Shown here piece after piece: positions 3,528-6,561 of a DNA stretch of 64,000 nt. This DNA comes from Bacteroidales bacterium (GTDB lineage Bacteria > Bacteroidota > Bacteroidia > Bacteroidales > F082). The stretch is taken from contig JAKSMU010000001.1 in the NCBI GenBank assembly GCA_024400455.1, positions 124,001 to 188,000 of the forward strand, read 5' to 3'. Under the pieces are notes generated by a model that saw only the letters and a list, made by a program, of their open reading frames with translations, was not told where the DNA came from and searched no databases. Both the position numbers and the translations under genes were made by a program. The number at the start of each line of letters is the position of its first letter. Within the stretch, counting starts at the first letter, position 1.

Positions 3528-3995
3528 TTAGATGAATTCCAACTTGTCTTCGGTGGTGTTCTTCTCGCAGTAGTGGCAGTGCAGTTTCACATGTCCGTCT
3601 TTGCCTTTCAGCACGACGAACTTGGTCGGGACATCATGCTCTTTGTTGGTGATGCAGTTCGGATTGGCGCATTTCACGATGTGCTCGATGCATTCAGGAA
3701 TTTCGACGGATTTCTTGCTGATGACTTCAAAATCCTTGATTTCGATTAAGGTGGCAGTTGGAGCGACAAGGGCTATCTTGTTGATTTCCTCGGCTTCGAA
3801 GAATTTGTCCGTGATTTTGATGATGCCTTTTGTGCCGTATTTCTTGCTCTCTAAGTTGGTGCCGAAATAGACAGGCTTGTCGATGGTCTCGAGACCTAAT
3901 ATCTTAATGACTTGAAACACCTTGTCGGCTGGAATATGGTCGATGACGGTTCCGTTTTCAATGGCTGAAACGACTAATTCTTTTCTTTTTTCCAT
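3528..3995 (-). CDS. pyrI: Aspartate carbamoyltransferase regulatory subunit
   Basis: The 155-residue regulatory chain of aspartate transcarbamoylase binds CTP/ATP and holds the catalytic trimers together. The C-terminal zinc site is complete: C109, C114, C140 and C143 in the CxxxxC...CxxC layout. The start is taken at the ATG at 3995 (MEKRKELVVSA); an in-frame upstream start at 4019 would read into repeat DNA. A repeat-filled gap of 131 bases separates it from pyrB, unusual for this pair. Its presence implies allosteric pyrimidine feedback in addition to the attenuator proposed upstream of pyrB. Confidence 0.95.
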   Translation of the reverse strand: MEKRKELVVSAIENGTVIDHIPADKVFQVIKILGLETIDKPVYFGTNLESKKYGTKGIIKITDKFFEAEEINKIALVAPTATLIEIKDFEVISKKSVEIPECIEHIVKCANPNCITNKEHDVPTKFVVLKGKDGHVKLHCHYCEKNTTEDKLEFI

Positions 3996-4126
3996 ATCGC
4001 GTTGTGATTTAAGATTCAAAGATTTAAGATTTAATGATTTAAGGGTTATCAGTTGTCAGTTTTCAGTTATCAGTAACATAATCATTTGAAAAACTGAAAA
4101 CCGTGAACCGAAAACTGAAAACCAAA
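3996..4126. repeat. Dispersed repeats filling the pyrB-pyrI gap
   Basis: The gap holds two repeat types. One is a run of near-copies of gatttaaga (4008-4042). The other is the octamer family ctgataac/ctgaaaac, present in both orientations: ttatcagttgtcagttttcag at 4047 onward, and actgaaaaccg...aaaactgaaaacc at 4090-4123. The opposed copies could fold into a long hairpin in the pyrBI mRNA. The same octamers recur at 30412-30451 and 63320-63375. Confidence 0.75.
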
Positions 4127-5047
4127 TTATTTAAGTCCAAGGATGGAGGCGATGAGAGCTTGACGTGCGTACACACCGTTTTGTGCCTGCTGGAAATAAT
4201 AGGCTTTCGGGTTAGCATCGACATCAACATGGATTTCGTTGACGCGTGGCAGTGGGTGCAGCACGCGGCAGTTTGGCTTCGAGTTGGCGAGCATGGCGTT
4301 ACGCAAGACATATGAATTCTTCACCTTTTCGTATTCTTCTGGATCAGGGAAGCGCTCGCGCTGGATACGGGTCATGTAGATGATGTCTGAATGAGGAATT
4401 GCGTCTTCCAATTCGGTGTATTGGTCGTATTTCAGGTTGGCGTCCTTGATATGTTGTTTCACGGTGCTCGGCAGTTTCAGTTCGTTAGGTGAAACGAGGT
4501 TGAATTTTGCATTGAAGTTGCACATAGCTTCGACGAGACTGTGAACGGTGCGGCCATATTTCAAGTCACCGACTAAAGTGATCTCAAGGTTTTCGAGTGT
4601 GCCTTGGGTCTTGCGGATGGAGTAGAGGTCGAGCATGCACTGGGTCGGGTGCTGGTTAGCGCCATCACCGGCATTGATAATCGGCACTTTGGAGACTTCT
4701 GAAGCGAAGCGGGCGGAACCTTCTATTGGGTTACGCATGACGATAAGGTCGGCATAGCTTGCCACCATGGTGATGGTGTCGGCCAATGACTCACCTTTCT
4801 GAATGCTTGTGCCAGCGGTGCTGCTGAAACCGATGACATTGCCGCCCAAAAGCTGGATGGCTGTCTCGAAACTGAGGCGTGTGCGCGTCGATGGCTCAAA
4901 GAAAAGCGAACCGATGATACGGCCGTTCAACAGATTCTGATGAGGGTTTTTCTCAAAGTCTTCAGCAATGTCCAGGACATGGCAGATTTCCTCCGGTGAG
5001 TAGTCGCTGATTGAAATCAGGCTGCGGTTTTTTAATGAAATTGACAT
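4127..5047 (-). CDS. pyrB: Aspartate carbamoyltransferase catalytic subunit
   Basis: This enzyme condenses carbamoyl phosphate with aspartate, the committed step of pyrimidine synthesis. The 306-residue length is normal. The carbamoyl-phosphate signature FEPSTRTR (residues 50-57), the [10 protein letters not shown] loop and the C-terminal HPLPRVNEI are all present. It is the first gene of pyrB-pyrI-lemA. Its start lies 27 bases after the T tract of a terminator hairpin that a short leader ORF overlaps, which suggests attenuation control (see the features at 5075-5104 and 5088-5192). Confidence 0.97.
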
Positions 5048-5074
5048 AATCGTATGTATTTGAATTGTTTTGGC

Positions 5075-5104
5075 AAAAAAAAGACGGTCAACAAATTGAC
5101 CGTC
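5075..5104 (-). terminator. Attenuator-like intrinsic terminator in the pyrB leader
   Basis: Read on the minus strand, a perfect 9-bp stem (gacggtcaa / ttgaccgtc, 4-base loop) is followed at once by eight T residues, and pyrB starts 27 bases later. It lies about 200 bases from the upstream trmH stop, so it fits a pyrB leader terminator better than a trmH terminator. Confidence 0.75.
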
Positions 5105-5192
5105 GATATGAAATAATAATGAAATTCAAGGTGATGGAACCAAAAGATCCCTTATTATTGAAATTGTCCGATAATTGAACTTTCTGTAACAT
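5088..5192 (-). CDS. Putative pyrBI leader peptide
   Basis: An ATG at 5192 opens a 34-codon frame that ends with TGA at 5090-5088. It runs through a U-rich stretch (nt 5105-5130, with three consecutive AUU codons) and through the 5' arm of the terminator hairpin, stopping just past the loop. This is the layout of the E. coli pyrBI leader: a translating ribosome close behind a slowed polymerase would cover the 5' arm and prevent termination when UTP is scarce. The peptide begins MLQKVQLSD and ends YRRSIC. No Shine-Dalgarno site is visible. The frame is short and its conservation is untested. Confidence 0.5.
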
Positions 5193-5199
5193 CAAAATG

Positions 5200-5207
5200 C
5201 AAAAATA
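5200..5207 (-). promoter_or_regulatory. Possible -7 box for the pyrB leader
   Basis: TATTTTTG on the minus strand matches the Bacteroidota -7 consensus and lies 7 bases before the leader ATG. I see no matching TTTG -33 element at the usual 19-22 base spacing, so this is tentative. The rest of 5208-5304 has no gene; a weak stem (5254-5261 with 5283-5290) may terminate trmH. Confidence 0.35.
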
Positions 5208-5304: not shown

Positions 5305-6042
5305 TTACCGTGACATTTGCGCCATAATGATAGCTGCAGCTATTGAAGCGTTGAGCGATTCGGTCAGGCTGCCTTCGGCGCGAGGAATGGTGATGGGGTG
5401 GGTGATAAGCGGCAGTATGTTTGGCCTGATGCCGTGCGATTCGCTGCCGATTACAATGATGCCTTCTGCTTTGTCTTGCATTTTGAACAGGTTTTTGCCA
5501 TCTAGCAAAGCTCCGAAAATGGCCTTGCCTTGGCTTTGGGATTTTGTCAGGAAGGCTTCCAAATCTGTTTCGATGATGTTCATCCTAAAAATGGATCCCA
5601 TTGTAGCTTGGATTACTTTGGGGTTCCAGAGCTCCACGCAATCTTCGCTGCACACGATGTTGCGGATGCCGAACCAGTCGGCGGTGCGGATGATGGTGCC
5701 CATGTTGCCCGGATTGCTGATGCCGTCTAAGGCCAACACCAAGGTTGCATTGCTGTCAATGGAAACCGTTTCGGGCTGGCGCACTACGGCTAGGATGCCT
5801 GGTGCGGTATCTTGTCCGGTCATTTGTTCCATCTGAACTTCAGTGGCAATTTCCACCTTATTTGAAGGGATGTCGTTTTCAGCACAATATTTTTCTGTGG
5901 CGAAAAGGCTGATGATTTCAAAGTCGCTATCTATCAGTTCGTTGACCATCTTGCGACCTTCGACGACGAAGAGTTGCTGCTCTTTCCGGTATTTCTGCTG
6001 CCTAAGTGCTGCAACAGATTTAATGGTGTTTTTCGTAATCAT
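5305..6042 (-). CDS. SpoU/TrmH-family RNA 2'-O-methyltransferase
   Basis: A 245-residue SPOUT methyltransferase of the TrmH/RlmB type, which methylates a ribose 2'-OH of rRNA or tRNA using S-adenosylmethionine. An N-terminal substrate-binding domain (about residues 1-95) precedes the knot fold. The three SpoU motifs are visible: ISNPGNMGTIIRTADWFG, then IVIGSESHGI, then the C-terminal IPRAEGSLTESLNAS. The exact target base cannot be assigned from sequence. It lies between the S6 operon and pyrB with its own spacing on both sides. Confidence 0.88.
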   Translation of the reverse strand: MITKNTIKSVAALRQQKYRKEQQLFVVEGRKMVNELIDSDFEIISLFATEKYCAENDIPSNKVEIATEVQMEQMTGQDTAPGILAVVRQPETVSIDSNATLVLALDGISNPGNMGTIIRTADWFGIRNIVCSEDCVELWNPKVIQATMGSIFRMNIIETDLEAFLTKSQSQGKAIFGALLDGKNLFKMQDKAEGIIVIGSESHGIRPNILPLITHPITIPRAEGSLTESLNASIAAAIIMAQMSR

Positions 6043-6054
6043 GATGTTGGGTAA

Positions 6055-6089
6055 TTGAAAAAGAAAGGCTGCCTCGCTGAGGCAGCCTT
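6055..6089 (-). terminator. Terminator of the rpsF-rpsR-rplI operon
   Basis: An 11-bp perfect stem (aaggctgcctc / gaggcagcctt, 3-base loop) is followed on the minus strand by a T-rich tail, 23 bases after the rplI stop. The trmH start codon follows within about 15 bases. Confidence 0.9.
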
Positions 6090-6111
6090 CTCTGTTGTTA
6101 TGATGCTATGC

Positions 6112-6561
6112 TTATTCAGCGTAAACTTCAAAGTTAACTTCGGCCTGAACGTCTTTGTGGAGTCTGACCTTAGCTTTGTAAGTGCCGATTTCCTTAATAG
6201 CGTCATCGCTGAGGACGATTTGCTTGCGGTCGATGTCGAGGTTGCAAGCTTCCTTGATGGCGTTAGCGATCTGCACATTGTTGACAGAACCATAAATCTT
6301 TCCGGTTTCAGAAGCCTTAGCAGGGATGCGAAGAGCAAGACCGTTGATGACGTTTGCTTTTTCTTGAGCTTCGTTTCTGACCTTTTCTTCTTTATGAGCC
6401 TGCTGGCGCATTTCTTCGGCCAAGATTTTGCGGTTTCTTTCGGTGGCCAGGATAGCCATGCCTTGAGGAATCAAAAAGTTACGAGCGTAACCTGGTTTAA
6501 CAGTTACGATGTCGTTCTTGTATCCTAAGTTGTTGATGTCTTGTTTCAGAATGATATCCAT
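6112..6561 (-). CDS. rplI: 50S ribosomal protein L9
   Basis: A normal-length (149-residue) L9. The N-terminal rRNA-binding domain starts MDIILKQDINNLGYKNDIV and contains the characteristic GYARNFLIPQG. A long connecting helix (about residues 50-75) leads to the C-terminal domain. It is the last gene of the rpsF-rpsR-rplI operon, 15 bases after rpsR. Confidence 0.97.
   Translation of the reverse strand: MDIILKQDINNLGYKNDIVTVKPGYARNFLIPQGMAILATERNRKILAEEMRQQAHKEEKVRNEAQEKANVINGLALRIPAKASETGKIYGSVNNVQIANAIKEACNLDIDRKQIVLSDDAIKEIGTYKAKVRLHKDVQAEVNFEVYAE

Follow-up and report, generated by a model that had tools for sequence, protein, structure and literature searches.

A conserved leader frame and terminator ahead of pyrB suggest ribosome-gated attenuation of pyrBI in a group of Bacteroidales

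The pyrB locus and its leader

The window analyzed here is a stretch of 64,000 nucleotides from a Bacteroidales bacterium that resembles Candidatus Limimorpha and has a genome of 2.9 Mb. Its PyrB is 99% identical to that of Candidatus Limimorpha equi (L031), the closest named record among those listed. The genes and leader elements with which we are concerned are the following.

5305-6042, minus strand: methyltransferase gene, upstream of pyrB and co-directional with it
5200..5207, minus strand: -7 promoter box TATTTTTG, of the TAnnTTTG type of Bacteroidota, assigned from sequence and genus conservation
5167..5196, minus strand: P1, a 5' hairpin with arms at 5196-5190 and 5173-5167 that encloses the start codon of the leader
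5088..5192, minus strand: leader frame of 34 codons plus TGA (5090-5088), assigned from frame conservation
5136..5151, minus strand: P2, hairpin GGGATC-TTTT-GGTTCC, 31 nt ahead of the terminator, -7.0 kcal/mol
5105..5135, minus strand: U-rich stretch between P2 and the terminator
5075..5104, minus strand: predicted intrinsic terminator (attenuator) with a perfect 9-bp stem, a 4-nt UUUG loop and U8
4127..5047, minus strand: pyrB, aspartate carbamoyltransferase catalytic chain (TIGR00670, 369.5 bits, above the NCBIfam cut-off)
3528..3995, minus strand: pyrI, aspartate carbamoyltransferase regulatory chain, downstream of pyrB (TIGR00240, 153.9 bits, above the NCBIfam cut-off)

The methyltransferase gene, whose best NCBIfam match is RlmB (100.4 bits, below the cut-off of 160.15), is separated from pyrB by a gap of 257 nt. 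A first-pass annotation of the window had reported a leader ORF, a terminator hairpin with U8 and a spacing of 27 nt to pyrB in this gap, and all of these are present on the minus strand. The terminator hairpin occupies 5104-5083 (-12.4 kcal/mol) and is followed by U8 at 5082-5075; the end of U8 lies 27 nt, and the hairpin 35 nt, ahead of the pyrB ATG (5047). The leader ATG (5192-5190) is found 7 nt behind the -7 box and 88 nt from the terminator stem, and the leader TGA sits in the 3' arm of the terminator. In a flavobacterium, the -7 box has been placed at -12 to -5 (PMC9723704). Taking the box of the window at the same place, we predict a transcription start near 5195, approximately 3 nt ahead of the AUG; a 5' UTR of 3 nt would leave no room for a Shine-Dalgarno site. 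P1 is weak in the window, with three G-U pairs, an energy of -1.2 kcal/mol and a fold z of -0.25. P2 is a possible pause hairpin, and the last 30 nt ahead of the terminator are 50% U.

Conservation of the leader frame within the genus

The window taken alone proves little, because in 31% of dinucleotide shuffles (p 0.31) a frame likewise stays open up to a point 15 nt ahead of the stem. This single-sequence result would suit a constitutively leaky terminator, crossed by a frame that is a by-product of chance. Such an explanation is opposed by the conservation of the frame across lineages, documented below, and we regard it as highly improbable.

The genus set was drawn from 107 loci, of which 27 were unusable (26 not oriented to the coding strand or lacking a recognised start, and L073 cut) and 15 were identical; together with the window, this gave 66 distinct sequences. 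Ten of these were left unscored: L050 (contig end), L072 (gene-end terminator), L124 (wrongly anchored), L084 and L014 (leader and terminator present, but missing the energy or distance cut-off), and L043, L057, L113, L059 and L060 (no terminator). In every one of the 56 scored leaders, the box is followed by the ATG after exactly 7 nt. No stop interrupts the leader frame ahead of the terminator stem in 55 of the 56, compared with 1 and 30 of 56 for the other two frames, and the sole exception, L068, stops 11 nt short of the stem. After clustering at 75% identity (13 clusters), the three frames are open in 13, 0 and 6 of 13, respectively. Since the lengths from ATG to stem take all three phases (20, 18 and 8 of 46 genus leaders), the frame stayed open while shifting against the terminator. 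By these counts, conservation of the leader frame across relatives exceeds chance. Alignment of the pyrB upstream regions of relatives had been recommended as a check on the leader; when the alignment was run, the frame proved to be conserved together with the hairpin. The opposite pattern, a hairpin conserved without its frame, was looked for in the same relatives and was not seen.

The position of the stop codon varies. Among the 56 genus leaders, the stop falls in the hairpin in 7, between the U tract and pyrB in 27 and 11 nt short of the stem in 1, and 21 frames run on into pyrB; a frequent stop is a TAA that begins 7 nt ahead of the pyrB ATG. A stop just past the loop, as described in the first-pass annotation, is thus correct for the window and does not hold as a conserved trait, given the 7 of 56 leaders that stop in the hairpin. 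The conserved arrangement, as read from the aligned leaders, is a frame that reaches or passes the hairpin rather than one that stops in the loop.

Synonymous bias had also been suggested as a mark of the leader frame, and we observed no more than a weak excess: 30% of single-change codons are synonymous versus 23% expected, as counted over 162 pairs that are not independent. Codon positions 1, 2 and 3 carry 602, 794 and 701 changes, without a third-position excess. Because the peptide is poorly kept and the synonymous excess is slight, selection seems to act on the openness of the frame and not on the peptide, as a pyrBI-type mechanism would predict. In the comparison, openness, start position and terminator are kept. 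A conserved peptide as the selected object was also considered and was set aside, peptide conservation being weak.

Searched with a covariance model of this leader type (R1), 30 of 40 genus genomes yielded a total of 31 matches, two of which lie in one genome with two pyrB copies, and the other 10 genomes yielded none. Thirty of the matches stand just ahead of a listed pyrB, and the remaining one is in G088, which has no listed pyrB. Among these 40 genomes, we saw no wider regulon of the R1 leader type at other genes. Since 30 of the 31 matches directly precede pyrB, the leader type goes with the pyrimidine gene.

Several genus sequences depart from the common arrangement. Three of the five without a terminator (L043, L057 and L113) have no leader altogether, and the other two (L059 and L060) keep only P1 and the start, so that P1 and the leader ATG stand without a terminator just before pyrB. 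The retention of P1 and ATG in these two sequences hints that P1 has a role apart from attenuation. In L014, leader and terminator are intact and the hairpin lies 126-105 nt before pyrB, about 65 nt farther than in close relatives, as if a stretch had been inserted between terminator and pyrB. Outside the counts, we inspected 21 named loci from beyond the genus (L089-L110, L096 excepted), and by eye no leader was seen in most of L092-L110.

Occurrence of the leader in the family, order and class

Each of the 14 other family genera that were scored has the leader as well. The family sample comprised 40 loci from 14 of the 15 other genera, genus g7 being outside the sample. L158, which meets a contig end, and L162, in which no start was located, were unscored, and 37 of the 38 scored loci pass the automatic rule. 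L167, for which the rule gives a stop at -16, had a wrong box assigned and runs through when anchored by hand. The family ATG is found 6-31 nt behind the box; the near-leaderless start is therefore a trait of the genus and some others, and not of the whole family.

The order was sampled with 98 of 108 non-genus hits, one per family, and two further loci, for a total of 100. A called terminator lies no more than 70 nt from pyrB in 35 of these loci; 64 are without one, and 1 is without a start. The 35 loci divide into 19 in which the terminator stands behind a long upstream frame without a box-ATG pair, 4 more without such a pair (L235, L246, L247 and L255), and 12 that were scored. By the automatic rule, 11 of the 12 scored leaders reach the stem or stop at most 15 nt from it, L209 being the one that fails; inspection by eye adds L238. 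Most Bacteroidales families sampled are without such a leader. Two order families were sampled more densely, and 9 of their 14 loci could be placed. All nine have, by eye, a leader frame that ends at, in or beyond the hairpin, and their peptides are recognisably related within each family. All scored leaders except L209 end no more than 27 nt from the stem or beyond.

We also compared frames by lineage, using 16 family rows and 14 order rows. The window, a single representative of each of 14 genera (that of g13, L167, anchored by hand) and L144, a second pyrB copy of one genome, make up the family rows. The 14 order rows were picked by eye among printed frames, where the automatic rule gives 11 of 12; they include L235, L238, L247 and L255, which the rule does not give, and leave out L209 (fails the rule), L244 (passes) and L246 (no pair). 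All 16 family rows and all 14 order rows have an open leader frame, with the other frames open in 1 and 6 of 16 and in 1 and 4 of 14, respectively. The 30 open rows of 30 compare with 8.8 expected, a nominal tail P of 1.4e-18 for rows that share ancestry. As far as can be judged from these genomes, the succession of promoter box, nearby ATG, open frame, terminator and pyrB is conserved in the genus and the family and recurs in other families.

At the 19 order loci with a long upstream frame (L171-L174, L178, L179, L182-L184, L190, L196, L197, L201, L203, L206, L212, L215, L233 and L252), the terminator starts 6-16 nt behind the first base of that frame's stop codon, and pyrB follows 14-58 nt after the hairpin. 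These stops fall inside the ribosome-blocking distance of the terminator, and the leader's function may be served by the upstream gene in these loci.

Terminators placed right behind a long upstream frame, as they precede pyrB in 19 of 100 other loci, raise the question of whether the hairpin in the window terminates the methyltransferase gene, with the pyrB promoter lying behind the hairpin. The co-directional orientation of the upstream gene (5305-6042) would agree with this. However, the 27 nt behind the U tract contain no TAnnTTTG, and the conserved box stands ahead of the hairpin. In the absence of a promoter box behind the hairpin, an ordinary gene-end terminator was rejected, and we find this explanation scarcely credible.

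For the class, PyrB as query at E <= 1e-50 proved too stringent (7 of 159), and TIGR00670 was used in its place (75 of 80). The class search supplied 29 loci (L286-L314, two of them from the order); 17 were placed, none of these with a called terminator, and 12 were not placed.

Hairpins and the U-rich gap across relatives

Pairing was assessed on alignment A1, which holds 43 of the 56 scored genus leaders. For P1, 94.4% of cells are paired, and 2 of the 7 pairs have both of their sides changed. For the terminator, 95.3% of cells are paired in the seven pairs counted, likewise with both-side changes at two pairs. None of 500 shuffles reaches the covariation score over the 43 leaders, a score that relatedness can also produce; 35 of 500 reach the number of doubly changed pairs and 92 of 500 the number of pair types, and two of the five pairing measures do not clearly beat shuffles. 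The 5' stretch has a fold z below -1 in 13 of 16 family rows and in 2 of 14 order rows (L202 and L238). Beyond the family, P1 is mostly absent and the frame is retained.

A hairpin in the place of P2 is found in 46 of the 56 genus leaders and in none of the 10 short leaders. In 40 leaders it lies 20-33 nt before the terminator and in 6 (L027, L030, L052, L054, L056 and L058) at 46 nt. The stems differ between subclades and occupy a similar place; both these counts and this likeness of place were taken without a shuffle control. On alignment A1, 82.6% and 74.4% of P2 cells are paired. Across the 30 lineage rows, the P2 region has a mean fold z of -0.57, slightly better than shuffles, with 12 rows below -1, and it is weak in several lineages.

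In the window and in the genus, the gap before the terminator is rich in U. The last 24 nt before the terminator are 51% U, 7% G and 21% A in the 46 full-length genus leaders. Over the lineage rows, the U fraction is on average 0.36 in the last 30 nt versus 0.28 before (Wilcoxon P 2e-4 for the 26 rows longer than 50 nt). This enrichment is not universal, as 8 of the 30 rows (L144, L146, L167, L168, L238, L247, L250 and L266) have less than 28% U in the last 30 nt. On the evidence of the alignments, the genus keeps P1, P2 and the U-rich gap in addition to the elements shared more widely.

These elements bear on the question of which signal the leader reads. A ribosome-gated attenuator could sense how the first ribosome loads, reflecting growth rate or translation capacity and not UTP, in which case the U-rich stretch would be no more than A/T-rich coding sequence. 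That proposal draws on the constant spacing of 7 nt from box to AUG (56 of 56 genus leaders), on the position of this AUG within a 5' hairpin, on the lineages in which U enrichment is absent, and on the short leaders that have neither P2 nor a long gap. It is harder to reconcile with a leader type tied to pyrB (30 of 31 covariance matches) and with the composition of the critical 24 nt, for which genus leaders have 51% U against 21% A, and we consider it unlikely.

Known regulators and alternative structures

PyrR attenuation controls pyr operons in other bacteria and, like the leader described here, acts ahead of pyr genes. Unlike in those bacteria, no PyrR match was found in Bacteroidales: 119 of 119 genomes gave none at E <= 1e-15, and 19 leader-bearing genomes, that of the window included, gave none at E <= 1e-6. 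With the same query, 6 of 6 genomes from other orders were matched at 2e-54 or better, each beside pyrB. Given this lack of PyrR matches, PyrR control is unlikely in the Bacteroidales group, and the leader may stand in PyrR's place in part of the order. In other Bacteroidia orders, a PyrR-like end was seen by eye directly ahead of pyrB in 12 of 16 placed loci. PyrR-like loci with no called terminator before pyrB are L289, L291, L293, L294, L296, L298, L300-L303, L309 and L312.

We next consider structures that might compete with the terminator. Pairing of an antiterminator with the terminator 5' arm shows no excess over shuffles (mean z +0.32 in the 30 rows, +1.06 in the window); z falls below -1 in 3 of the 30 rows, with L166 at -2.91. 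The lack of an antiterminator trend favors direct cover by the ribosome over a trp-type switch. A leader attenuator of the trp or his type was rejected for the window on its z of +1.06 and on the absence, by eye, of a run of codons for a single amino acid in its peptide. Known cis-regulatory RNAs of Rfam were likewise rejected, with none at the gathering cut-off in the window; between 5040 and 5260 there were sub-threshold hits only, the best being L20_leader at 23.8 bits against a cut-off of 58.7.

An RNA-binding protein or an unrecognised riboswitch might nonetheless act on P1 or P2, with the frame as a passenger, and the paired changes in P1 and the recurrence of P2 at a similar place with unlike stems are what such a regulator could produce. 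On the other side are the Rfam hits at the leader, all of them sub-threshold, the missing PyrR match, the lack of any general mutually exclusive pairing with the terminator, and the retention of the frame outside the family, where P1 is mostly missing. Taken together, these observations make control of this kind very unlikely.

Proposed mechanism and comparison with known systems

The first-pass annotation had likened the arrangement ahead of pyrB to that of E. coli pyrBI, and this likeness is supported by the conserved frame and terminator in relatives. We think it probable that the leader is a pyrBI-type attenuator, in which translation of the leader would decide read-through and low UTP is the predicted signal. 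When UTP is plentiful, the polymerase would cross the U-rich gap fast and outrun the first ribosome, the hairpin would fold, and transcription would end at approximately 5075-5082. When UTP is scarce, the polymerase would slow in the U-rich gap, perhaps aided by P2, and the ribosome would catch up and cover the 5' arm of the terminator, so that pyrBI would be transcribed. P1 could tune the speed at which the first ribosome loads on a message with about 3 nt ahead of the AUG.

The E. coli pyrL-pyrBI system is UTP-sensitive and coupled to translation (PMC10135430, PMC5021804). In this system, abundant UTP brings fast transcription and termination and scarce UTP brings slowing and rescue by the ribosome, on a 49% U-requiring template (PMC10135430). 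The hairpin may be dispensable for the pyrL pause (PMC9291695). By analogy, this UTP reading fits the Bacteroidales leader, which would serve the same target pathway. The two leaders share a frame that runs into or through a terminator ahead of pyrB, the same pyrBI genes, a hairpin and a U-rich gap before the terminator, and the lack of an antiterminator trend. In the MG1655 record, the distance from the pyrL ATG to the stem is 88 nt, equal to that in the window; a hairpin picked by eye lies 38 nt before the terminator, and the last 30 nt are 40% U. The pyrL stop codon begins 6 nt ahead of the pyrB ATG, whereas the frame of the window stops in the hairpin. The Bacteroidales leader also differs from pyrL in its predicted 3-nt 5' UTR, its Bacteroidota promoter and the placing of its start codon in a 5' hairpin, and its peptide gave no BLASTP alignment with E. 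coli PyrL at E <= 100. We propose that the Bacteroidales leader works like pyrL, and do not imply descent from it.

The distances involved may be compared with those of ribosome-repressed terminators. In E. coli constructs, a stop codon 5 bp from the terminator cuts termination from approximately 90% to below 10%, and full termination returns beyond 27 nt between stop and terminator (PMC4824070). In these constructs, as proposed for the pyrB leader, the hairpin is blocked by a ribosome standing no more than about 27 nt away; unlike the leader, the constructs are synthetic and, as described in that report, carry no nutrient switch (PMC4824070).

Attenuation in Bacteroidota and its implications

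Amino-acid leader attenuators of Bacteroidota use codon runs and antiterminators, and Bacteroid-trp comprises a leader peptide ahead of a biosynthetic operon. The Bacteroid-trp motif (RF01692) is listed in PMC2864571, and leader-peptide attenuators have been reported at amino-acid operons of Flavobacterium psychrophilum (PMC9723704). The latter resemble the pyrB leader in placing a leader peptide before a biosynthetic operon in the same phylum; the amino-acid attenuators of Bacteroidota differ in the operons that they serve, and the pyrB leader has neither a codon run (by eye) nor an antiterminator trend. The first-pass annotation named no earlier description of the pyrBI arrangement in Bacteroidota. 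Attenuation by leader peptides as such is on record in the phylum for amino-acid operons (PMC9723704), and no leader attenuator of a Bacteroidota pyrimidine operon was found in the literature searched, which excludes most subscription papers. In B. thetaiotaomicron, long 5' UTRs carry sORFs reminiscent of leader peptides, and approximately 3.7% of 5' UTRs are shorter than 10 nt, making near-leaderless initiation rare (PMC7366714). In the leader described here, near-leaderless initiation would be built into a switch.

We tentatively extend the proposal to a general design, a possibility about which we remain doubtful, in which Bacteroidales, where no PyrR was found, run pyrBI by ribosome-gated termination. 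Either leaders, which look different from one another across most families, or the end of the preceding gene would bring a ribosome within a few nt of the pyrB terminator, and the Limimorpha genus would do so from a start on nearly leaderless RNA, with the AUG in a 5' hairpin. If true, the start in the Limimorpha genus would put close coupling of transcription and translation to a built-in test, in a phylum whose translation begins without Shine-Dalgarno sites. The proposed attenuator itself would provide a natural, repeatedly kept reporter for ribosomes that closely follow RNA polymerase. To our knowledge, whether ribosomes follow RNA polymerase closely is unsettled for Bacteroidota. The proposed attenuator would also offer an answer to how pyrimidine synthesis is controlled in part of a major gut order without detectable PyrR, and it would suggest that the pyrBI solution arose again or far predates enteric bacteria.

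Other features of the locus

Two further features were seen on either side of the leader. The gap between pyrB and pyrI contains, at 4020-4126, a repetitive stretch that by eye is partly self-complementary (cagttttc.../...gaaaactg). At 6064-6090 of the minus strand, a strong hairpin of 12 pairs with a T run lies behind the frame 6112-6561, which we take to resemble ribosomal protein L9.
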